DNA of 40,706 nucleotides from a virus. The stretch's first letter is position 1. The number at the start of each line of letters is the position of its first letter. The position numbers and the translations under genes are program-made. The notes under the pieces were generated by a model, which saw nothing but the letters and a program-made list of their open reading frames with translations, ran no database searches and was not told the DNA's origin. This document shows, one piece after another, positions 6,401 to 34,475 of the stretch. The stretch spans positions 1-40,706 of IMG/VR virus record IMGVR_UViG_3300042449_000759; one strand, given 5' to 3'.

Positions 6401-9400
6401 GTGTCAGTATGTGTAAAATCTTGTGTTAAACCAGTTTTTGAAATTCTATCGAACTTCATAGTCAGATCAAACATTCTTGCTTTACTATCACCGATAATGG
6501 CAACTGCAGTTGCTTGCACTGAATCTGATGGATTCCCACCAGTTAAAGTAACCGTCGGTGCACTTAGGTATCCAAATCCACCAGAAGTTAAGATAATTTT
6601 AGTAACTTTACCACTTGCAATATATGCTTTTGCAGTAGCACCAGTACCAGAACCTGATATTTCTACAGTAGGTGGTCTATCATAATTAGTACCTTGGTTA
6701 TGAATAACAATATCAGTCACTGAATATGCGTGATTATCAGACCACCATTTCCATGGATATCCACTGAAAGTCGTCAAACTATTCATTGGCATGATTTTAC
6801 CATCTTCATAATTGTAAGCTGGCTGTAAATCAAAGTCAGATACACCAGTTGCTGCGGTTTCGATAGAATCGTATTTACTAATATATTCTCTAACCGTAGT
6901 TCTGTATGGTTTAACTTCATTGATATAACTTTCAAAACTACTTAAATTATCACTGTTGTAATTCAAGGTTTGTTTGAACGGACCAATGTTGTGAGTAGCA
7001 GTTATAAAACTAGTTTTAAATGCCCAGTCAATATACATTTGTTCAGCAAAAGCTGCTCTTACACTAGAGAAGAATAAGTTATTCCATTCGACGTCATATT
7101 CACCAGTGAAAATATCTTCTTTAACTGCTCGTAGAATAAATCTCAACTCACGAGTAAAGTCCCTGTCATACGAAATACCATCAAATGGAGCAACGCCATC
7201 ATAGCCAAATGTAGTAGTATATAATATTGAGCTAAGTTGGATAGTACCGTTTTCACGACCTACCATACTATAGTAATCAGAGAATACTTCTAAGTCGTAA
7301 TTAGTAACACCAGCGACGTCATCTTCATCTGCGATTCTTTCAAATACAGCCCAACCACCGTTTTCGTATTCTTTGATTCTAATTAAATCACCAACTTCGG
7401 TTTCTAAGTCGTTGATTGAAACAATAGATGGGATTTCTTTAATAATTCTTGATGACAAACCATAACCAGATTTCCACCAATCAACATATGACCAATATCT
7501 AGTAGCATCATATTGCTGTGTTGCATTACGAGTGAACTGATTGATATGAGCATTCCATTCGTAGATACTCCAGAAATTACTGATAGATTCATCGGCTTTT
7601 ACTAGTACTGATAATGGTCTTACGATAGCAGTTGTATTGCTATATTTCTTACCACTGTACTTGATTTCAGCTAAGATTACTCGACCATAATTATCGATAA
7701 TCAGTTCAACAACTGCACCAGAACCATCACCATCAACTGTAACTAATGGTCCTTTATACCCAGTTCCTTTATAATTATATTGTGGTAAATTCAAGTTTTC
7801 ATATACTGGAATTGATGGTTTATATCCATAACCTTGATTTGTAATGGTTACTTGAGTTACTTTGCCATTAGTTAATCCCAATTCGATAGTTGCTTGTTGT
7901 GCATGACCAGTATTAACGTACTGCAAATCTAACAAGGTATCAACTACGGTATCATATCTGTTAGATTCAACAGATGGTACTGGATCAATTGAATTTAAAA
8001 TTTCAAAGTTGATGCTACTTGTAAATGGTGCTTTTAATAAAACGCCATTAACGTGTTCGATTGCAGATTTCAAAACAGTAGTTCTATCAATAAACATACT
8101 TTGTCTTGGTCTAAAAGATAATCCATAACGTTGTTTTACTGGTAAACTATCATCAGGTACTCTATTACCTGCAGAATCAGCACCGATTAAACTATCAATC
8201 CATTTTAATTCTAATGGTGCTGATGGTACACTAGATGCTAACCCTTCAGTCATCAATTGATATTCGTTATGAACTGGAATCAATGATGAATCATCTTTAT
8301 AGTAAACTACATTAATCAACGCAGTATCAGATGGTAGTTTAGAACCGACGTTGAATGTTAGTAATTCGTTTTGGCTAGTGAATGCTACAAATGCAACGCC
8401 AGTACCAATTGGGTTTGAAATAGCCGTTGCAACGTCAGATGCTGAAACTGTTCTGGTTGATCCACTTGGTATAATTACGGGATTTTTAACCCAGAAATAG
8501 TAATACGTTTCTGTTGTTACACCAGTTACTGTGTTGTACAAGTTTTTGACAGTTAATACATTATCATTAGGATACAGTGGTTGACCTGAAATACCTTCAG
8601 CAATACCTTCGTTTGTATCGGCTAACGTAGCCCATTCAGAAGGTAATATCTTGGTTTTAACCCATTCGTAAACATCAACACTTGAGCCAGTTGCCATTTG
8701 ATTCCAATGGCCTGTTCTGTATGCGAAATCACCTTGTTCTGCATAAACCCATTTAACAGCAGAAACATCCCACCATAATTTACCAACATGAGCATCATCC
8801 CATGATTGCGTTGGTTCAATAATTTGAATTGTGTCGTCAGTACCGTTAGTATAAACGGCTGGATCATACAACGTTTTGTAGGTAATTGCTTGCTCTGCGT
8901 AATTGAGAACTTTCAATTTTGCATGATCTACATAGTCTAAATCTTGGATTTTGATGTTTTTAACATTATCATACAATTCAACACTTTTGACTTTTGCAAT
9001 ATCAACTACTTCAGCTTGCTGTGCGATTGTATTCCATGAGTTAGCAGTTTTATCCTGCACAAATAATCTCATCATACCAACTTTATCAGTTGTTCCTGGA
9101 ACCATATAATTTGGTGAACCAACAACAACCACATCATCGGTACATGCAACCGCAAATCCATATGATTCATATGGCTGCATAACAATATCAGTTGGTACTG
9201 GTTTAGCAGTTAAGAAGTAAAGATCCGCTTTCTTCTCAAATACATAAATTCCACCAGCACTACCAATTGAAGTTACGATTTTAGTTCTGTTTTCATCAAA
9301 AGTGGTAGTACCATTATCAAAAAGTTTGTACTGTGTATATGGTGTGTTTTTAGCACCTACTACCAACGTATTACCAGTAGCACTAAAAGATAATGAAGTA

Positions 9401-25244: not shown

Positions 25245-26293
25245 TATAAGAATCCTACTCCATTTGTTGTTAAATTACCTTTTGCGTAATCAGTTAGACT
25301 GAATTGACGAATCGTTGTTCTGTTATATATTGGACTAACCGTAACAGTCACGGTGCTAATAATTGGAACCCAAGTAGGTGCTCCACCGCTCTCAGAATTA
25401 CAACGAATGTAATTTACCGAATCTTTTAGTTCTACACTAAATGATTTGATGACAACAGGGACTCGATTGAATACCCCTGGTCCATACCCAGATAACCAAC
25501 ATACCACAGGTGGGTTACCGGCATGTGCACCTTGTCCAAAAAACATCTTGGTAGCTGTTTTAAAGAAAGTCGTGGCGGCTAACCAATATTGTGCATCTGT
25601 TTCTGTTTCACAGGTGAACTCACCTGAAATTTGAATATCTTCCACTTGGCTATTTTTATATGCTTGTATTGCATAATTGCTATGTGTTATATCAGGATTT
25701 GAATAATTTGCTTTTGAGGCTACTGTTATATTCGGTAGATATGGCCAAACAACCCCTCCAGTATTTTCCAGATGTTTACTGAATAAAGGAGAATTAAACT
25801 GTTCCCACGGTGCATCGATTCGTACACGCCAATCGTTCTCTGTTCCGGGTGATACAAGAACAGTCGCTCGTTGCTCCGCAAACAATTCTGCACCAGATGG
25901 TAAATTGGAACTTCGCTTCATACTTAGTAGATCATTCAAGTTACCAGCCGCTTTCGATAACTGACTAGCAAATCCAGAAATATCACCAGTTGCTAAACTG
26001 GTTACAGCAGATAACGCAGTGGAAACTCCACCACCGATCGCACCAACCGTGTTTGTAAGAATATTACCGACGCCACCCAATGCCTCATTAGCTAGGTTAC
26101 CAACACCAGGAATGATCCCACCAGTACCACCAGATGCCATTGAATCCAAATTAGCCATTTCACTAGCATTAGTGACAGTGTTGGTAGTATTAGAAAACGT
26201 TGGCGTAATAGCACTGTTCATCGCTGCCTGTGATGCAGACGGCGGTGCTTGTGATGCAGCTAAATCTGCGAATGAAATTGATGGTAATGCCAT
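25244..26293 (-). CDS. Tail-tube initiator/baseplate cap protein (gp48/gp54 type)
   Basis: 349 aa. The N-terminal ~130 residues are Ala, Gly, Ser and Thr rich with helical, weakly amphipathic stretches. From residue ~140 a compact beta domain begins with sequence like tube-initiation proteins of T4-like phages: ISGEFTCETETDAQYWLAAT, TFFKTATKMFFGQG, VVCWLSGYGPGVFNRVPVVI, then KSFSVELKDSVNYI. In T4 gp48 and gp54 sit on the hub and start tube polymerisation. The ATG has AGGAGA at good spacing, and a late promoter (AATAAATA, 26317-26324) lies just upstream, so this is the first gene of the structural operon. Which of gp48 or gp54 it replaces cannot be told; only one such gene is visible. Confidence 0.7.
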   Translation of the reverse strand: MALPSISFADLAASQAPPSASQAAMNSAITPTFSNTTNTVTNASEMANLDSMASGGTGGIIPGVGNLANEALGGVGNILTNTVGAIGGGVSTALSAVTSLATGDISGFASQLSKAAGNLNDLLSMKRSSNLPSGAELFAEQRATVLVSPGTENDWRVRIDAPWEQFNSPLFSKHLENTGGVVWPYLPNITVASKANYSNPDITHSNYAIQAYKNSQVEDIQISGEFTCETETDAQYWLAATTFFKTATKMFFGQGAHAGNPPVVCWLSGYGPGVFNRVPVVIKSFSVELKDSVNYIRCNSESGGAPTWVPIISTVTVTVSPIYNRTTIRQFSLTDYAKGNLTTNGVGFL

Positions 26294-26316
26294 GATAAAT
26301 ATTCTCCTAGTAGTAC

Positions 26317-26324
26317 TATTTATT
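26317..26324 (-). promoter_or_regulatory. Late promoter of the main structural operon (AATAAATA)
   Basis: Minus strand AATAAATA followed by GTACTACTAGGAGA, the last part being the ribosome binding site of the 349-aa gene. It is back to back with the promoter of the gp55 gene, so late genes and their sigma factor diverge from one ~80-base region. Confidence 0.7.
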
Positions 26325-26336
26325 CCATAAAAAGTA

Positions 26337-26345
26337 TGTTATAAT
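26337..26345 (+). promoter_or_regulatory. Extended -10 promoter of the gp55-like gene
   Basis: TGTTATAAT is a perfect sigma70 extended -10 (TG, one base, TATAAT). No good -35 hexamer lies 17 bases upstream, as is usual for extended -10 promoters. It would start transcription near 26352, before GGAGAGAG and the ATG at 26377. Confidence 0.6.
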
Positions 26346-26376
26346 AGGTCTTATCGTATTCAATTGGAGAGAGTTA

Positions 26377-27225
26377 ATGGCTGACCACGTAGTACCAAAA
26401 GCAAAGTATTTGACAAACAAAGAGTTACTGAAAGCAATCCACGCAAGTAAAAACACTTTTTGTTCATATACCCAACCTGAATTCGGGTTCTATGACTGTA
26501 TCGTTACGGATATCGGTGAAATTAATGAAGATACAATCAATGATGCTAAACAAAGTCGTGCTACTCGCTTATCAAGAGCAGCACATGAGAAAGCCCAACT
26601 AGAAGCTGGTAAGAAAATCCCAGCCATTGAATTTGAAGTAGATTACACCACCATTTGCGAAAATGATTTGGTATTCAGAATCATGACGTTTGACCACATT
26701 CCCCTGCAGCCAGACCGTAAGAAAACGGTTAAAACTGTTGCTGATGGTCGTGCTAAAGTAAACTTCCCACCTTTCCAACATTGGAAATTCAATGAGAATA
26801 AAGAGTTAGTTTGTGTTGGTAAAAGCCATTGGGATGGTGATGTCGATACTGGTCATTTCAGTATCACAAAAGGTCAGATGTCTAACTTATTAGGTAAGAT
26901 GTTAATGAAATTGGCTGAAAGATATTCTTCACGTAGTAACGTTCGCGGTTACACGTATGTTGATGAGATGCGAGGCCAGGCAGTACTTCAGTTGACGCAG
27001 GTTGCTCTTCAATTTGACGAATCAAAATCATCAAATCCATTCAGTTTCTATACGCAATGTTGCACGAACGCCTTCTTACGTGTGATAAACATAGAGAAAA
27101 GAAATCGTGAAATTCGGGATGACATTCTTGAAAGTGCTGGTTTAAACCCTAGTCATACTAGAATGAATTCTGATACCTACGGAGAAAGAATGAATGATGG
27201 TTATACTTGGATTGACGTTGACTAA
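26377..27225 (+). CDS. 55: Late-transcription sigma factor, gp55-like
   Basis: 282 aa. Residues ~185-260 hold the sigma region-2-like core of the gp55 family: NVRGYTYVDEMRGQAVLQLT, then NPFSFYTQCCTNAFLRVIN, then IEKRNREIRDD. T4 gp55 has 185 aa; here about 95 extra residues at the N-terminus carry no motif I recognise. gp55 binds host core RNA polymerase and reads the TATAAATA-type box; the many NNTAAATA sites in this window are its expected targets. The C-terminal tail (YTWIDVD) is short, acidic and aromatic, as expected of the peptide that binds the sliding clamp in T4, though that is inference. The promoter is sigma70-type, so it is made before late genes. The gene ends in a stop embedded in the CTAAAAGATAAT repeat and is followed by a terminator. 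Confidence 0.9.
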   Translation: MADHVVPKAKYLTNKELLKAIHASKNTFCSYTQPEFGFYDCIVTDIGEINEDTINDAKQSRATRLSRAAHEKAQLEAGKKIPAIEFEVDYTTICENDLVFRIMTFDHIPLQPDRKKTVKTVADGRAKVNFPPFQHWKFNENKELVCVGKSHWDGDVDTGHFSITKGQMSNLLGKMLMKLAERYSSRSNVRGYTYVDEMRGQAVLQLTQVALQFDESKSSNPFSFYTQCCTNAFLRVINIEKRNREIRDDILESAGLNPSHTRMNSDTYGERMNDGYTWIDVD

Positions 27226-27278
27226 AAGATAATTGTTCTACCATTCACTACTTAAGCCCAGTTAATTCTGGGCTTTTT
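27222..27278 (+). terminator. Rho-independent terminator after gp55, with repeat word over the stop codon
   Basis: AAGCCCAG (27254-27261) pairs with CTGGGCTT (27268-27275) around a TTAATT loop and is followed by a T run. The stop codon of gp55 lies inside CTAAAAGATAAT (27222-27233). The same two elements, with the identical stem and loop, follow gp46 at 31680-31726. Confidence 0.9.
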
Positions 27279-27279
27279 C

Positions 27280-27729
27280 TCATCTAACCTGTACTATATA
27301 TTCACCTGAACTTGGATCATTTTTAACCACAGCAAATCCATATCGTCTACTCAACTGCTGAGTTAATGATTGATACACACCACGTCTATCATTAGTGCCA
27401 TCATCTTTTGCCGCTGAGTACCCAATATACACAATCTTTGGGTTTTGTTTAATCCAAACCAATGCACATGCTATTACGGTTGATAAAATCTTACGAGAAA
27501 AACCTTCTGTATTGAATCCATCAAATGAATCATTAATCTCGTATATTAAAGTAGCATAGTTAGATCTATTTTTGTGAAACAAGATCATACCGGTGTGGTT
27601 TTCACCACTTGGTGTTTCAAACGCAAACTCAAAAATATTTGAATCAGTTTGTTTGTATTCTAGTGGAGTATCTAATGCCTCCACTAGATCAATGTTGTCA
27701 ATTATGTCAAGCAGTTCTCGCATTTGCAT
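27280..27729 (-). CDS. Uncharacterised 149-aa phage protein
   Basis: Not recognised. The product starts MQMRELLDIIDNIDLVEAL, then has alternating strands and helices with no Cys pairs, membrane segment or catalytic signature. The fold may be a small alpha/beta domain (strands VYIGYSAAKDDG and FAVVKNDPSSG near the C-terminus), which is compatible with an acetyltransferase-like shape but without a convincing acyl-CoA motif. The start overlaps the end of the 123-aa gene by 23 bases, so they form a two-gene operon read from the 28108-28136 promoter. The stop lies 2 bases from the end of the gp55 terminator, so the hairpin probably serves both strands. Confidence 0.6.
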   Translation of the reverse strand: MQMRELLDIIDNIDLVEALDTPLEYKQTDSNIFEFAFETPSGENHTGMILFHKNRSNYATLIYEINDSFDGFNTEGFSRKILSTVIACALVWIKQNPKIVYIGYSAAKDDGTNDRRGVYQSLTQQLSRRYGFAVVKNDPSSGEYIVQVR

Positions 27730-28078
27730 TTCTCTTTTCCTTTACTTGTATGTAGATTGCCTCTGGTTCCACGTCGAAGTATTTGTACAATGCACCGCAC
27801 AACCAACCATCTATACCCAATGCCTCACACACATACCAGTTACCGGTTTCTTCATTTCCACGTGTTTTCAATTCTAACTTATATTTATAGGATGGAAATG
27901 GGTTTTTAGAAAAGATACAGAGGAATCCATCGTGTGCATTTGGAATATGACTAACCATAGCGTCAATAATCAAATCAGCACCCGATACAAATGCTTCTTT
28001 GTTCAATCCCGTTGTTTCGTCATCAAATACCCATACGCCGTGGTAATTGTAAATCTCAATAATATTGATTGCGTTCAT
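27707..28078 (-). CDS. Conserved small protein of unknown function (DUF6717-like, 123 aa)
   Basis: It resembles a small family, DUF6717 I believe, with the pattern YxGVWVFDD near the start (residues 11-19), then E-x-F-V-x-G-A-D-x-I-I-D (28-39), then NWYVC, GWLCGALYKYFD and a final IYIQVK strand. No known activity. No signal peptide or membrane segment. The start is supported by GAGGTG five bases before the ATG and by a good sigma70 promoter 30 bases further up. It is the first gene of a minus-strand pair (with the 149-aa gene) set between gp55 and gp47 and is probably expressed early. Family assignment is from memory of the motif pattern. Confidence 0.65.
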   Translation of the reverse strand: MNAINIIEIYNYHGVWVFDDETTGLNKEAFVSGADLIIDAMVSHIPNAHDGFLCIFSKNPFPSYKYKLELKTRGNEETGNWYVCEALGIDGWLCGALYKYFDVEPEAIYIQVKEKRNANARTA

Positions 28079-28107
28079 ATTACACCTCGTTAGTTGAATG
28101 AGCCGTT

Positions 28108-28136
28108 ACTATATAGTATAATAAACCTATAGTCAA
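28108..28136 (-). promoter_or_regulatory. Sigma70 promoter of the 123-aa/149-aa pair
   Basis: Minus strand: TTGACT (28131-28136), 17-base spacer, TATAGT (28108-28113). The word ATTATCTTTTAG (28140-28151, minus strand) sits three bases upstream of the -35. Confidence 0.75.
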
Positions 28137-28139
28137 TAC

Positions 28140-28182
28140 CTAAAAGATAATCAAATCACAATTGACTTCCATTATCTTTTAG
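28140..28182. repeat. Inverted pair of the 12-base word between divergent promoters
   Basis: CTAAAAGATAAT (28140-28151) and ATTATCTTTTAG (28171-28182) are exact inverted copies 19 bases apart. The first abuts the -35 of the leftward promoter; the second fills most of the spacer between the -35 and -10 of the rightward promoter. This is the layout of an operator controlling both directions, but no binding protein is known. Confidence 0.7.
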
Positions 28183-28189
28183 TTATAAT
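28162..28189 (+). promoter_or_regulatory. Sigma70 promoter of the 70-aa gene
   Basis: TTGACT (28162-28167), 16-base spacer, TATAAT (28184-28189). The spacer contains ATTATCTTTTAG. Confidence 0.8.
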
Positions 28190-28220
28190 ACCAGCAACTT
28201 AACCCAACAAGGACAATGAT

Positions 28221-28433
28221 ATGAAAATAGAACCATTTGATGCATTAATAGAGGAAAAATACGGTGTTTCAGTATACGATTGCGATTCAAATACAACTCG
28301 TGATCCCATTAAAGAAATGCGAACTTGGTGCATTAATACTTTCGGTGAGGGCAACGTCAGACCATCGCTTACAAATTTCTACTTTCTCAATGAATCAGAT
28401 AGACTTATGTTTATTATGCGGTATACCGAATAG
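28221..28433 (+). CDS. Uncharacterised 70-aa protein
   Basis: Not recognised. The ATG has AAGGACA upstream and a good sigma70 promoter about 30 bases away, which is why I keep this frame over an overlapping 71-aa one. The product is slightly acidic, without membrane segments, and contains MRTWCINTFGEGNVRP and a final LNESDRLMFIMRY strand-like stretch. Small, promoter-proximal, sigma70-driven genes in T4-like phages are often early host-takeover proteins, which is only a guess here. A second sigma70 promoter follows immediately and reads gp47. Confidence 0.6.
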   Translation: MKIEPFDALIEEKYGVSVYDCDSNTTRDPIKEMRTWCINTFGEGNVRPSLTNFYFLNESDRLMFIMRYTE

Positions 28434-28437
28434 TCAC

Positions 28438-28466
28438 TTGACAAACCACTACATACCATATACAAT
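28438..28466 (+). promoter_or_regulatory. Sigma70 promoter before gp47
   Basis: TTGACA (28438-28443), 17-base spacer, TACAAT (28461-28466), 31 bases before the gp47 ATG. Confidence 0.75.
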
Positions 28467-28496
28467 TCACCAATCTTAACTAACCTGAAGAACAAT

Positions 28497-29513
28497 ATGA
28501 CAGATAATTTATTCAAGAAAGTAGCAGTATTCACTGATTTGCACATTGGTGCTAAGTCTAATTCAACCACTCACAATGAAGATTGTGAACAATTCATTGA
28601 TTGGTTTATTGAAACCGCAAAATCCAATGGCTGTGAAGTTGGTATGTTCTTAGGGGACTTCCACCACAATAGAAGTTCACTTAATATTCTATCTATGGAT
28701 TACAGTGTACGATGCCTTGAGAAAATGGGTGCTGCATTTGAAAAGTTCTATTTCTTACCAGGCAACCACGATTTGTACTTAAAAGATCGTAGAGACGTAT
28801 GTAGTGTTATCTATGGTAAGTTCATTCCAGGGATTACAATCATTGAAAAACCAATGACTATTGGTAATGTAACTCTTTGCCCTTGGTTGATTGGTGAAGA
28901 ATGGAAAACTGTTGGTAAAACAGGTGGTCGATATATCTTTGGTCATTTTGAACTGCCTGGTTTCTTCTTAAACTCGATGGTAAGAATGCCAGATACCGGT
29001 GAAATTCGTAATGAACAGTTCAAACCATACGAACTTGGATTTAGTGGACATTTCCATCAAAGACAATCTAATGGTAATATCAACTATATTGGTAATGCGT
29101 TTCCACATAATTATGCGGATGCTGGTGATGATGCCCGTGGTATGATGATTTTAGAATGGGGTGGTGAACCTCAATATCTTTCATGGCCTAAACAACCTAC
29201 TTATAGATCATACAAGCTAAGTGAAGTTATCAGTGAACCCGATAAGTTGCTTAAAGAAGGTATGCATTGCCGTGTAACTATTGATATTCCTATTACATTT
29301 GAAGAAGCAAACTTCATTAAGGAAACTTTCATACCGCAATACAACCTTCGTGAGATGCACTTGGTTCCTTCTAAAGCAGATATCAATCCTGACTTAGCTC
29401 CAGTTGATATTAGTTTTGAAACAGTTGATACTATTGTTATGAGTCAAATTGAATCAATTGATACTGAATCATTTGATAAGAATTTGTTGATGGCAATCTA
29501 TCAAGAACTGTAG
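28497..29513 (+). CDS. 47: Recombination nuclease subunit gp47 (Mre11/SbcD type)
   Basis: 338 aa, the same size as T4 gp47. Metallophosphatase motifs appear in order: TDLHIG (D14, H16), GDFHHN (D54, H56), PGNHD (N90, H91, D92), FGHFE (H150) and GHFHQ (H185, H187). These residues bind the two metal ions used for DNA strand cutting. With gp46 it forms the SbcCD/Mre11-Rad50-like complex that resects ends for phage recombination-dependent replication and degrades host DNA in T4. It is the first gene of an operon gp47, Vsr-like nuclease, gp46, read from a sigma70 promoter just upstream. No strong Shine-Dalgarno sequence is seen; GAAGAAC at 28487-28493 is the best candidate. Confidence 0.95.
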   Translation: MTDNLFKKVAVFTDLHIGAKSNSTTHNEDCEQFIDWFIETAKSNGCEVGMFLGDFHHNRSSLNILSMDYSVRCLEKMGAAFEKFYFLPGNHDLYLKDRRDVCSVIYGKFIPGITIIEKPMTIGNVTLCPWLIGEEWKTVGKTGGRYIFGHFELPGFFLNSMVRMPDTGEIRNEQFKPYELGFSGHFHQRQSNGNINYIGNAFPHNYADAGDDARGMMILEWGGEPQYLSWPKQPTYRSYKLSEVISEPDKLLKEGMHCRVTIDIPITFEEANFIKETFIPQYNLREMHLVPSKADINPDLAPVDISFETVDTIVMSQIESIDTESFDKNLLMAIYQEL

Positions 29514-29522
29514 GTGGTGATA

Positions 29523-29927
29523 ATGAATATGCAAGAAACCTATTTGTTTGAACAGTTTCGTTCTGTATTCCCAGAGATTGAAAAGCAATTCTATATACCG
29601 TATGTTCGTAGTGGTTCAAAAAGACATTATCGCTACGACTTCCGGTATCAAAACAAGATAATTGAGTTTCATGGTGACTTCTGGCATGCGCATCCATTAC
29701 TGTATGCCGAAGACTTTGTTAATCCAACTACGAAGAAAACTGCGTTTGAAACTTGGACTTCTGATTATCACAAGAATCAATACGCCATTGACAATGGTTA
29801 TTCTTTACTGGTTGTTTGGGAATCTGATTTTAACGCCAACCGACAAGAAGTTGTTGACCGTTGTACTAATTTCCTGTTAACATCAACTATCAATCCTACA
29901 ATTACTGACTATCATGATAACAATTAA
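29523..29927 (+). CDS. Vsr-like PD-(D/E)XK endonuclease inserted between gp47 and gp46
   Basis: 134 aa from the ATG at 29523, chosen because AGGTGG lies just upstream; a GTG at 29514 would overlap that site. The sequence YRYDFRYQNKIIEFHGDFWH (residues 36-55) fits the Vsr/restriction-like core: D39, E48, H50 and the FHGDFWH turn, followed by YSLLVVWESD (93-102), the usual last strand. Related single-strand or mismatch nicking and homing enzymes share this arrangement. No GIY-YIG or HNH motif is present. It ends 14 bases inside gp46, so translation is coupled. It may help recombination as a junction or mismatch nuclease, or be a free-standing homing endonuclease that invaded the 47-46 pair. Substrate is unknown. 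Confidence 0.75.
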   Translation: MNMQETYLFEQFRSVFPEIEKQFYIPYVRSGSKRHYRYDFRYQNKIIEFHGDFWHAHPLLYAEDFVNPTTKKTAFETWTSDYHKNQYAIDNGYSLLVVWESDFNANRQEVVDRCTNFLLTSTINPTITDYHDNN

Positions 29928-31683
29928 GAATCTTACGATTAAAAACTTCCTATCGATTGGGAATCAAACTCAAAGCATTGCCTTTGACCAAGGATTACTT
30001 ACCTTAGTTTTAGGTGAAAACTTAGACTTGGGTGGTACAGATAAACGAAATTCAGTTGGTAAAACCAGTATCGTCAACGGCTTAAGCTATGCGTTATTTG
30101 GTTCTGCTCTGACTAATATCAAACGTGAAAACCTTATCAATAAGATTAACGGTAAAGCTATGTTAGCTACTGTTACGTTTGATAAAGATGGTGTTGAGTA
30201 CCGAATTGAACGTGGTAGAAAACCTAATATCTTGAAGTTTTCTATTAATGGTAAAGATCAAGTTCTACAGGATTTAGATGAAAGCCAAGGTGATTCAAGA
30301 GAAACTCAAAAGGCTATTGAAGAAATCTTAGGTATGAAACATGAGATGTTCAAGCATATTATTGCTCTGAATACCTTTACGGTTCCATTCTTAGGAATGA
30401 AACCAGGTGAACAACGAGAAATCATTGAACAGTTACTTGGTATTACCCAATTGAGTGAAAAAGCAGAAGTCCTAAAGGTTCTTGTTAAGGAATCCAAAGA
30501 TGCAATCACTTATGAAAACACCCGTATTACTACAGTACAAGCATCGAATGACCGTATTCAACAAAGTATTGAAGCCTTAATTCGTAAAGAAAAGATGTGG
30601 AATGAAACTCGTGATAGAGCAGTTGTTTCTATCAACAAAGATATTGAACGATTAAGTCCAATTGACATTGATGCCGAGATTCAAGCACAACGAGAGTATA
30701 CAGTTTGGCATACCAGTAAGAAAGAACGCGATAGTATTAACTCGTTAATTGCAAAACAATCTACTGCCGTTGAACGAGAAGAACGTGTTCTTAAGTCACT
30801 AGAGCAAGAGTTAGTTCACTTAGCAGAACATAAATGCCATGCCTGTGGTCAAGAGTTACATGACGACAAACATGAACAGCTATTAGCTACTAAAAGTGAA
30901 CAATATCAAGCTAGTGTAAAGTCAATTGCTTCACATAAAGAAGAATTAGACTTATTAGATGAAGCTATCATTACTTTAGGTGAGATTGGTCCTTGCCCAA
31001 CTGTTAAGTATGATACCCTAGAACAAGCCTTGAATCACAAGAATACAATTGCTTCACTAGAGAAAGAGTTGGCTGGTAAGTTAGCTGAAACCAATCCGTA
31101 CTTAGAACAAATCGAAGACTTGAAAACGACTGCAATTCAAGATGTTTCATGGGATAAAATGAATGAATTAGTTCGAGTTAAAGAGCATCAAGACTTTCTC
31201 TATAACTTGTTAACTAACAAGAATAGTTTTATCCGTAAACGTATCATCGATCAAAACTTGGCATTCTTGAATCAAAGACTTTCGGTTTACTTAAGTCAAT
31301 TGGGTCTACCACATCAAGTAGAATTTCAAAATGATTTATCTGTATCGATTACCCAATTAGGTCAAGATTTGGATTTCTACAACTTATCTCGTGGTGAGAT
31401 GAATCGTTTAATCTTGTCGTTAAGCTGGTCTTTTAGAGATGTTTGGGAGAACCTATACCAACCAATTAACTTGTTATTCATTGATGAGTTGCTAGATTCT
31501 GGTTTAGATTCATCTGGTGTTGAATGCAGTATCTCTGTTCTAAAACAAATGACTCGTGAACGTAACAAAAATGTGTTCTTGATTTCACACAGAGATGACT
31601 TAACTAGTAGAGTTAATCACGTGCTGAAAGTTATCAAGGAAGGTGGGTTTACTCATTATGCCACTGACGTGGATATAGTCTAA
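29914..31683 (+). CDS. 46: Recombination nuclease ATPase subunit gp46 (Rad50/SbcC type)
   Basis: 589 aa (T4 gp46 has 560). The Walker A region is the extended form seen in many T4-like phages: GENLDLGG, then NSVGKTS (G49-K50-T51). Coiled-coil arms flank a zinc hook KCHACG (C308, C311) at the middle. The ABC signature is LSRGEMNRL (from residue 491) and Walker B is INLLFIDE (D524, E525), followed by SHRDDL (His switch). It powers opening and resection of DNA ends with gp47. The ATG overlaps the end of the Vsr-like gene. The stop codon lies inside CTAAAAGATAAT and a terminator follows, exactly as at gp55. Confidence 0.95.
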   Translation: MITIKNLTIKNFLSIGNQTQSIAFDQGLLTLVLGENLDLGGTDKRNSVGKTSIVNGLSYALFGSALTNIKRENLINKINGKAMLATVTFDKDGVEYRIERGRKPNILKFSINGKDQVLQDLDESQGDSRETQKAIEEILGMKHEMFKHIIALNTFTVPFLGMKPGEQREIIEQLLGITQLSEKAEVLKVLVKESKDAITYENTRITTVQASNDRIQQSIEALIRKEKMWNETRDRAVVSINKDIERLSPIDIDAEIQAQREYTVWHTSKKERDSINSLIAKQSTAVEREERVLKSLEQELVHLAEHKCHACGQELHDDKHEQLLATKSEQYQASVKSIASHKEELDLLDEAIITLGEIGPCPTVKYDTLEQALNHKNTIASLEKELAGKLAETNPYLEQIEDLKTTAIQDVSWDKMNELVRVKEHQDFLYNLLTNKNSFIRKRIIDQNLAFLNQRLSVYLSQLGLPHQVEFQNDLSVSITQLGQDLDFYNLSRGEMNRLILSLSWSFRDVWENLYQPINLLFIDELLDSGLDSSGVECSISVLKQMTRERNKNVFLISHRDDLTSRVNHVLKVIKEGGFTHYATDVDIV

Positions 31684-31743
31684 AAGATAATTGAATCTAC
31701 TAAGCCCAGTTAATTCTGGGCTTTTTGTTGTCTAAAAGATAAT
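31680..31743. repeat. Two direct copies of the 12-base word flanking the gp46 terminator
   Basis: CTAAAAGATAAT occurs at 31680-31691, overlapping the gp46 stop codon, and again at 31732-31743, 10 bases before the -35 of the next promoter. The terminator lies between them. Confidence 0.85.
31702..31726 (+). terminator. Rho-independent terminator after gp46
   Basis: AAGCCCAG (31702-31709) and CTGGGCTT (31716-31723) pair around TTAATT and lead into a T run. Stem and loop are identical to the gp55 terminator. Confidence 0.9.
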
Positions 31744-31753
31744 AGAAAAACAC

Positions 31754-31781
31754 TTGACATTCGAAAATAATCCACTATAAT
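31754..31781 (+). promoter_or_regulatory. Sigma70 promoter of the lectin-like gene pair
   Basis: TTGACA (31754-31759), 16-base spacer, TATAAT (31776-31781). No TAAATA late box is near, so the pair is probably expressed early or throughout infection. Confidence 0.8.
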
Positions 31782-31815
31782 ACGCACAACTTAAACAAAA
31801 CTGCGGTAAATTGGC

Positions 31816-32109
31816 ATGAACGTTGAAATAGCACCAAAAGAAACTGAAGTAAGATTAACTTGGGACGAAGCTAGAATGTATTCATTTTCTCTTAATATTG
31901 ATGGTAAAACAGGATGGCGGTTGCCTGACAAAGATGAACTGAATGAAATATACCAAGCTAAAAATGATTTTGAAAAATGGTATTACTGGTCCTCTACTGC
32001 GCGTATTGTCAATCGCGCATGGAGTCATTGCTTCGCTGGTGGCTCCAGGGGCTACCACAGTAAGAACTTCAGAAACGTCTACGTTAGAGCAGTAAGAGAT
32101 TTTTCATGA
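31816..32109 (+). CDS. Small C-type-lectin-like (DUF1566-type) protein, first copy, with NNC-rich C-terminal half
   Basis: 97 aa. The pattern KTGWRLPDKDELNEIY (residues 31-46), then YYWSST (61-66) and a final VRAVRDF (90-96) is that of DUF1566/Lcl-C domains, which adopt a C-type-lectin fold and often bind surface ligands. One domain fills the whole protein; there is no signal peptide or fibre anchor. From about codon 62 codon use changes sharply: about 16 of the last 36 codons end in C (GTC, CGC, TGC, TTC, GGC, TCC, TAC, CAC, AAC), against about 4 of the first 60, whereas neighbours prefer T or A endings. Such NNC codons at the ligand-binding end are typical of diversity-generating retroelement variable regions. 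It overlaps the second copy by ATGA. Confidence 0.75.
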   Translation: MNVEIAPKETEVRLTWDEARMYSFSLNIDGKTGWRLPDKDELNEIYQAKNDFEKWYYWSSTARIVNRAWSHCFAGGSRGYHSKNFRNVYVRAVRDFS

Positions 32110-32396
32110 ACTTCGAAATAGCACCAAAAGAAACCGAGATCCGAGCAAATTGGTATGATGCCAAGTTGTATTGTTTTGCTCTTAATATAGTTGGTAAGAC
32201 CGGTTGGAGATTGCCTACCATAGATGAATTAAATGCGATATATCAATCAGATAATGATTTAGAACCCGATGGGTATTGGTCTTCGACCGAGAACGATGAC
32301 GGTGGTGCATTCGTTAAGTACTTTTTCGATGGTTACCAGTACTCAGGACTTAAGAATAGTGGTCATGGGTCGGTAAGAGCCATCCGAACAATCTAA
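32106..32396 (+). CDS. Small C-type-lectin-like (DUF1566-type) protein, second copy
   Basis: 96 aa, a tandem paralogue of the preceding gene. Both begin MNxEIAPKETE and share KTGWRLPxxDELNxIYQ, YWSST and VRA[VI]R. Similarity holds over the first ~60 residues and falls away between YWSST and VRAIR, the part that forms the binding surface in this fold. C-ending codons are also raised in this part (about 11 of the last 38) but less than in the first copy. No signal peptide or membrane segment. No strong Shine-Dalgarno sequence is seen; the start overlaps the previous stop, implying coupling. Possible roles are host-surface or sugar recognition, or an early inhibitor; unproven. Confidence 0.75.
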   Translation: MNFEIAPKETEIRANWYDAKLYCFALNIVGKTGWRLPTIDELNAIYQSDNDLEPDGYWSSTENDDGGAFVKYFFDGYQYSGLKNSGHGSVRAIRTI

Positions 32397-32430
32397 CAGT
32401 TGCGATCCATAAACCAGTAAAATCCCACCT

Positions 32431-33597: not shown

Positions 33598-33623
33598 TAA
33601 TCATACTAAAGAATTACCCAAAA

Positions 33624-33842
33624 GCAGTTTACAGAGACCATCTCAAATCAATACCGACACCAAGTCTACTTACACAAAAGCAATTACAGAGACCATCTCA
33701 AATCAATACCGACACAAAGTCTACTCACACAAAAGCAGTTACAGAGACCAACTCAAGTATTACCGACACCAAGTCTACTTACACAAAAGCAGTTACAGAG
33801 ACCAACTCAAGTATTACCGACACAAAGTCTACTCGCACAAAA
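33624..33842 (+). repeat. Four tandem 54-56 bp repeats
   Basis: Units begin GCA(G/A)TTACAGAGACCA at 33624, 33680, 33735 and 33789 and end in CACAAAA; a fifth, degenerate unit precedes the promoter at about 33531-33567. Units 1-2 carry CCATCTCAAATCAATACC and units 3-4 CCAACTCAAGTATTACC; the tail alternates GACACCAAGTC and GACACAAAGTC, as if a two-unit block was duplicated. In RNA each unit could form two mini-hairpins, GAG-loop-CTC and GAC-loop-GTC, with loops ACCAA, ACCAT or ACAAA. Confidence 0.9.
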
Positions 33843-33853
33843 GCAATTACTCA

Positions 33854-33865: not shown

Positions 33866-34475
33866 GCACCCGCCAAACTTGCTCACCGAATTACTAGATA
33901 GAACATAGAAAGGTGAGAGAATTGCTAAGAAAGCCGCGCACAGGCGACCATTACGTGCCCTTAAACCCTGGTCTACTTGAATCACAGGGGATGGAAGTTC
34001 CGACATTAGCAACGGAGATATAGTTCACTACCCCACCAGATGAGTTATGGGATATGCCTTCATACAACCCATTTGAACTATAGCAAAAACGAATAACCAA
34101 GGCTAAAGATGGGTTGAGAAAACCCACGTCACGTAGATGAGGTAGCTGTTGTTTACGTGGCCACCGTCAGATTAATAAGACTGAGCTCGAGGTACCGGCT
34201 GACCGCCTCTGTAATGCTCTACATGCTACTGTGATGCGATGCTTGTACGCAGAACCCTTGGACATTTTAGTTCCACAATTAGAAATGTCCATTGTCCTTT
34301 GAATTAACCCGAGTTTTTCGGGTTAAGATGTTCAGCTCCACAACCCGCAGTGAGGGCTCCGCTGGCGCGTCGCTATAATAGATTTAATTATTGATTTTAA
34401 TAATTGTAGGAGCATATAAGATTAAATGAATTCTAAAAGATAATGTACCTAATAGATACCTGCTTAAGCCACGCG

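Follow-up and report, generated by a model that had tools for sequence, protein, structure and literature searches.

The C-terminal half of a small lectin gene carried by a jumbo phage is probably an ageing variable region of a diversity-generating retroelement (DGR), whose machinery has since been lost or which arrived with genes from DGR-carrying donors. The gene is the first of a tandem pair in a 40.7-kb virus record (IMG/VR record IMGVR_UViG_3300042449_000759; 40,706 nucleotides, referred to as the window), which is a fragment of a larger phage genome. The SbcCD region of the window matches at the DNA level the SbcCD region of PA5oct-type Pseudomonas phages (~287 kb), and on these grounds we regard the window as a fragment of a jumbo myovirus. 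We do not class the locus as a DGR because the defining parts of such an element were sought and not found; what we infer is the past action of a retroelement, and the loss or import of its machinery. The coordinates of the features discussed below are collected in Table 1.

Table 1. Features of the lectin gene pair and its surroundings, in window coordinates.
Feature	Position	Strand	Description and basis
Intrinsic terminator of the upstream SbcC-like gene	31702..31723	+	8-pair stem, T-rich tail
Block identical in contig G002	31711..32405	.	promoter and both genes; flanks on both sides differ by ~5%
Predicted sigma-70-type promoter	31754..31781	+	TTGACA-16-TATAAT; 12/12 consensus positions, consensus match only
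Lectin gene 1	31816..32109	+	single-domain Lcl_C protein with predicted C-type lectin fold, 97 aa, no extra domain
Variable-region-like stretch of gene 1 (codons 62-88)	31999..32079	+	NNC count, third-base profile
Constant 3' end YVRAVR (TACGTTAGAGC...) of gene 1	32080..32097	+	pattern match 32062-32090; same end in array genes
Lectin gene 2	32106..32396	+	Lcl_C protein, 96 aa; start overlaps the stop of gene 1
C-terminal half of gene 2	32289..32372	+	at most a strongly decayed variable region

The two genes share a 4-base overlap, their identity to each other is 54%, and pairwise comparison shows the first ~60 residues to be alike and the remainder not. Both products exceed the Pfam gathering cut-off of 34.9 bits for Lcl_C (DUF1566, PF07603), with scores of 47.4 bits for gene 1 and 47.0 bits for gene 2, confirming an earlier note on this DNA that described a tandem lectin pair with similar N-terminal ~60 residues and different binding halves. 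The closest PDB structure to the AlphaFold model of gene 1, which was built with 26 relatives (pLDDT 96.0, pTM 0.87), is the C-terminal domain of Legionella Lcl (8q4e; TM 0.83, E=4e-6). Other C-type lectins match the model at weaker scores in the structure search, which covered gene 1 only. By this model the gene 1 product is predicted to have the C-type lectin fold, which is also the fold of Mtd of Bordetella phage BPP-1, and the lectins presumably serve in binding cell-surface or other ligands. The variable stretch lies near the C-terminus of the lectin domain, and the YVRAVR end of gene 1 is the counterpart of the constant 3' stretch that closes DGR variable regions. The motif VRAVR, which had been reported as the end of the gene, is near the C-terminus and not terminal, as the product ends VRAVRDFS.

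The pair sits between the terminator of the SbcC-like gene and a gene for a PDDEXK nuclease. Its neighbours are SbcD-like, SbcC-like, PDDEXK nuclease and RNase H-like genes, with long virion-type genes on the opposite strand; these identities come from Pfam and PHROG where scanned and from resemblance elsewhere. The terminator stem is kept at the same place in a congener, contig G003, where the syntenic promoter site reads TTGACA...TATACT, and from these elements the lectin pair looks like a transcription unit of its own. There is no DGR-type hairpin directly 3' of the variable region after gene 1 or after gene 2. Further downstream, the window contains an Rfam Polynucleobacter-1 RNA (RF01718) at 33933-34083 on the + strand (80 bits, E=3e-15), which may give a hint to host or habitat, and a ~54-base unit repeated in tandem in ~4.3 copies (33614-33850), between the RNase H-like gene and this RNA.

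The codons of gene 1 differ markedly between the two halves of the gene. Codons ending in C (NNC) account for 14 of the last 36 codons compared to 5.9 expected from the codon usage of the fragment's other genes (P=0.0003), and for 6 of the first 60 codons compared to 7.0 expected (P=0.74). The contrast between the halves that the earlier note had pointed out is real, although the counts given there (~16 of 36 and ~4 of 60) were slightly off. A density of 14 NNC per 36 codons is reached nowhere in the 19 other genes of the fragment, where the maximum in 10,686 overlapping windows is 13. The signal is weaker in gene 2, with 11 NNC among the last 36 codons against 5.8 expected (P=0.015).

Genes of the Lcl_C family are dispersed and present in all 17 related contigs, and their number is large in G003, with 59 Pfam Lcl_C matches and 84 open reading frames (ORFs) detected by a family profile, or ~80 when allowing for overlapping and duplicate listings. 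Counted over the last 36 codons of 186 related ORFs, NNC codons peak at 5-7 per ORF, the main mode, with a second group at 16-19. A variable class is made up of ~13 ORFs of G003, gene 1 and a few genes of other relatives. The class was first delimited by C-ending codons. For 17 of its members, codon positions 1/2/3 diverge by.173/.116/.367 N-terminally, as they would under purifying selection, compared to.358/.357/.278 in the variable half. The remaining lectins of the family diverge by.543/.487/.633 in the same half. The analysis was repeated with members chosen by a protein motif, a choice that is blind to codons and lessens the circularity, yet yields largely the same genes; relative to positions 1-2, position 3 then diverged 2.38-fold N-terminally and 0.93-fold in the variable half, and none of 500 bootstraps reversed this order. 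The sequences are related to one another, and P values are approximate. The C-terminal halves of the class look like DGR variable regions. At 157-161 kb in G003, small related ORFs with the ending PVRDLKDD are closely packed; many are shorter than the lectin pair, and the variable-region signature is mostly absent from them.

Column by column, the third bases in the variable half are nearly frozen, as T or as C, across 4-11 different amino acids; the base is T in columns 10, 17 and 30 but C in columns 27 and 32-36, where 5-10 amino acids occur per column in this set. Rewriting that is specific for adenines, from a template with both AAT and AAC codons, would fit these per-column third bases. 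Because the third bases are fixed per column, as T or as C, two explanations that involve no retroelement are disfavoured. One is that the binding half is under positive selection and that the C-ending codons arose by chance or drift. In its favour, diversifying selection would naturally act on the binding half of a lectin, and gene 2 is strongly diverged with no clear codon signature. However, selection that acts on amino acids does not make third bases less variable than in the N-terminal part of the very same genes, nor does it hold one column at T and another at C whatever the amino acid, and the rest of the lectin family shows the ordinary pattern; we therefore consider this explanation improbable. 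The other is import from a donor with C-rich third positions, whose codon bias would have been retained. This appears very unlikely, for although the block that contains the pair does move between phages, the C-richness is confined to the variable half, with the first 60 codons of gene 1 close to expectation, and the T-ending columns are fixed as strongly as the C-ending ones.

Gene 1 itself was compared with a leave-one-out profile of the class, built without gene 1. Its third bases match the profile at 12 of 17 variable columns compared to 4.9 under the null, and none of 4000 simulations reached as high a value. The deviation at the other five of the 17 suggests drift since the region was written. 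Among the array genes, those best preserved agree with the profile at 16/16 to 18/18 columns. For gene 2 the match is 8/18 and not significant (P=0.12). The adenine-directed codon signature proposed earlier holds for the class, to which gene 1 conforms in part.

Templates of other phages provide an independent comparison. When IMG/VR was scanned for AAY-rich templates belonging to this domain, 39 stretches were obtained; all except a piece in contig G009 read like DGR templates. Two of the loci (L123 and L124) are phage loci with an Avd-like gene, a template and a reverse transcriptase (RT), where RT and Avd were identified by profile, and the target gene is visible in L124. The template of the L123/L124 type reads WSSTENNSNNAWNLNFGNGNWNNNNKNNSNW, and its N positions coincide with variable columns of the class. 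All 14 AAY codons of another template (L149) fall on variable columns of the class (14/14; Fisher P=1e-5 with gene 1 left out), and the AAY codons of three further templates similarly coincide with these columns. Because the template of the present genes was not found, their adenine specificity is deduced from the pattern and from these templates of other phages.

The search for the machinery covered 18 contigs, namely the window and the 17 related contigs, four of which are 306-372 kb long. RVT_1 was found in none of the 18, compared with 12 of 12 template-carrying DGR contigs used as a positive control, and the DGR-RT PHROG family was not found in the related contigs. Avd was above noise in none of the 18 (the best match, in G003, has E=0.018), compared with six of six DGR contigs. 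A template-type AAY-dense window was present in 40 of 40 DGR controls and in none of the lectin loci examined, and the window, G001, G002 and G003 had none; in G007, seven weak windows reach 8 AAY codons each, but none of them is like the lectin template. There is no second copy of the gene 1 variable region within the window, and the earlier statement that RT and template are absent from the window is borne out. A scan of IMG/VR for a template with the constant 3' end returned only the genes of this phage group and two chance matches, L164 and L165, which were rejected as templates. The single match in GTDB genomes, in a Treponema MAG, was likewise rejected as chance. A weak match of G003 to a DGR-RT profile (E=0.012, from ~237,764) lies in the lectin array (236.6-240.4 and 324.5-325.9 kb) and is taken as noise because the profile derives from stop-to-stop ORFs and may include translated template.

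The earlier note had proposed to extend the search for RT and template beyond the window, and G003 makes this possible for a congener. The first 176 bases of this contig equal its last 176 at 98.9%, and the join is spanned by a gene of G001, so that G003 is very probably complete. It contains no RT, Avd or template repeat. One half of what had been named as evidence against a retroelement, the lack of RT and template in a complete genome, was thus observed, and this absence is that of the congener G003 and not of the window phage's own genome. The piece found in G009 (71635-71666) is ~30 bases long, template-like and located in no lectin ORF, with 200 bases separating it from the end of the contig; its flanks have no match to the array genes or to a longer lectin gene nearby. 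The latter (L156, ~8113-8250, - strand) resembles DGR targets of other phages. The piece and the longer gene are at most suggestive of a DGR remnant. Close to its start, the longer gene is put out of frame by ten consecutive G, which may represent either an assembly error or a phase-variable tract.

Comparisons among the contigs show how the locus changes at present. Gene 1 is found at 100% identity in two IMG/VR contigs, G001 and G002, and hence in three contigs including the window. G001 differs from the window at 2 of 24,504 bases. G002 is 94.6% identical over 26278-32408, and the conservation of gene 1 between flanks that have diverged by ~5% gives no sign of current mutagenesis. A second block without differences between G002 and the window, around 28.9-29.4 kb, shows that such exchange reaches beyond the lectins. 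G002 also contains ~380 additional bases 3' of the pair, past window position 32408 (L027/L029), which apparently code for a small protein that begins with MRIYELFENAGTLYFHATASEFEDF. The gap between the SbcC and PDDEXK genes in G003 (327 kb) retains the terminator and the promoter and carries three other lectins, with 73.7% DNA identity to the window across the first gene region. The SbcD, SbcC, PDDEXK and RNase H proteins of G003 are 95-100% identical to those of the window. The presence of different lectins in this conserved setting indicates that the content of the locus is exchanged between phages. The lack of RT, Avd and template in G003 and the identity of gene 1 in three contigs argue against an active DGR at gene 1.

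The lectin genes could also still be written in trans by a DGR whose RT and template reside elsewhere, in the host, in a prophage or in a phage that co-infects the cell. The best-preserved array genes agree with the profile at all columns in genomes without RT, and targets more than 370 kb from the RT are known (PMC3521204). Between G003 and G001, the first array gene differs at 13/11/4 codon positions 1/2/3 in the 38 codons of the variable half, compared to 6/5/16 in the 56 codons of the N-terminal part. On the other hand, the orthologous variable halves are unchanged or nearly so in G003/G006 and G007/G004, as gene 1 is in its three contigs, and the constant-end scans of IMG/VR and GTDB gave no template. 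With part of the orthologous variable halves frozen and part differing chiefly at positions 1 and 2, action in trans retains a small probability and we consider it unlikely. There is a similarly slight chance that the jumbo phages keep the lectin arrays as passengers diversified in trans by a host or helper-phage DGR. If the trans reading is true, one retroelement serves target genes in other genomes.

In the explanation that we prefer, an ageing variable region, adenine-specific mutagenic reverse transcription from an AAC/AAT-rich template would have written the variable codons of gene 1, with codon bases 1 and 2 randomised and the third base left. The machinery, that is RT, Avd and template, would no longer be in the phage lineage, having been lost after the family diversified. 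Alternatively, the diversified genes may have been imported from DGR-carrying donors, and the data do not separate the two. The present change at the locus would consist of lectin genes being swapped and duplicated between phages, and not of ongoing retrohoming.

Several known systems resemble the one described here in part. The phage DGRs with Lcl_C/DUF1566-type targets (L123/L124) use the same domain as gene 1, but they carry RT, Avd and template, whereas the present lectins are found without any of the three and with ~13 variable-region-like ORFs in one genome. The multi-target DGRs of Pseudogulbenkiania and Pelodictyon are similar to the present lectins in having a paralogous target family; some of their targets are distant from the RT, and one RT copy has been lost (PMC3521204). 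These genomes retain a working RT, in contrast to G003, where none was found. Multi-target DGRs, distal targets and the loss of one RT copy are thus already known (PMC3521204). In the DGR of BPP-1, Mtd shares the C-type lectin fold and has its variable region near the C-terminus (PMC10743442). However, brt, TR and avd adjoin mtd and no such set accompanies the present lectins, and Mtd is an annotated tail protein, compared to 97-aa single domains next to recombination genes here. The collagen-like adhesin Lcl of Legionella, whose C-terminal domain (8q4e) has the fold and Pfam family of gene 1, is a long adhesin (431 positions in the NCBIfam model), while the domain stands alone here.

A tblastn search of named phages (E 1e-5) returned no match to gene 1, and for a well-kept array protein the sole match was Dulem virus 29 (30%). 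No FGS-type C-type lectin domains were reported among 224 jumbo phages (PMC7824862), in contrast to the ~80 Lcl_C-type ORFs in a single jumbo phage genome here. Our literature search, with most subscription journals outside its coverage, found no paper on DUF1566 paralogues in phages. A large RT-anchored survey of DGRs requires the variable region to adjoin the RT, and its authors say that remote targets are missed (PMC8144416). Because such surveys start from the RT, variable-region genes without RT are invisible to them. The codon-position test, in which the third base is frozen and bases 1-2 vary, works without RT or template and is applicable to any gene family, for past or remote action of a DGR.

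Two minor observations concern the related genomes. A dispersed intergenic hairpin, consisting of GCGA, a 5-bp stem with a GNTA loop, and GAG, occurs in 50 copies in G003 (L183-L199), 49 of which lie outside ORFs of at least 120 aa. Its stem occurs in many compensatory versions (GCACC/GGTGC, GTGCC/GGCAC, GGCAC/GTGCC, GCTCC/GGAGC). Copies follow several G003 array genes and were considered as DGR target hairpins, but many others lie elsewhere between genes. The hairpin was found in no copies in the window, G007, G002 and unrelated loci, in 8 copies in G001 (L013), and also in L156. At L013 (5851-9471), a 1206-aa portal-like protein has two apparent intein-like inserts (CLSLDTAIKL...VHNS and CFAMDTKVSLLDG...FVFNSN), recognised by eye from the translation.
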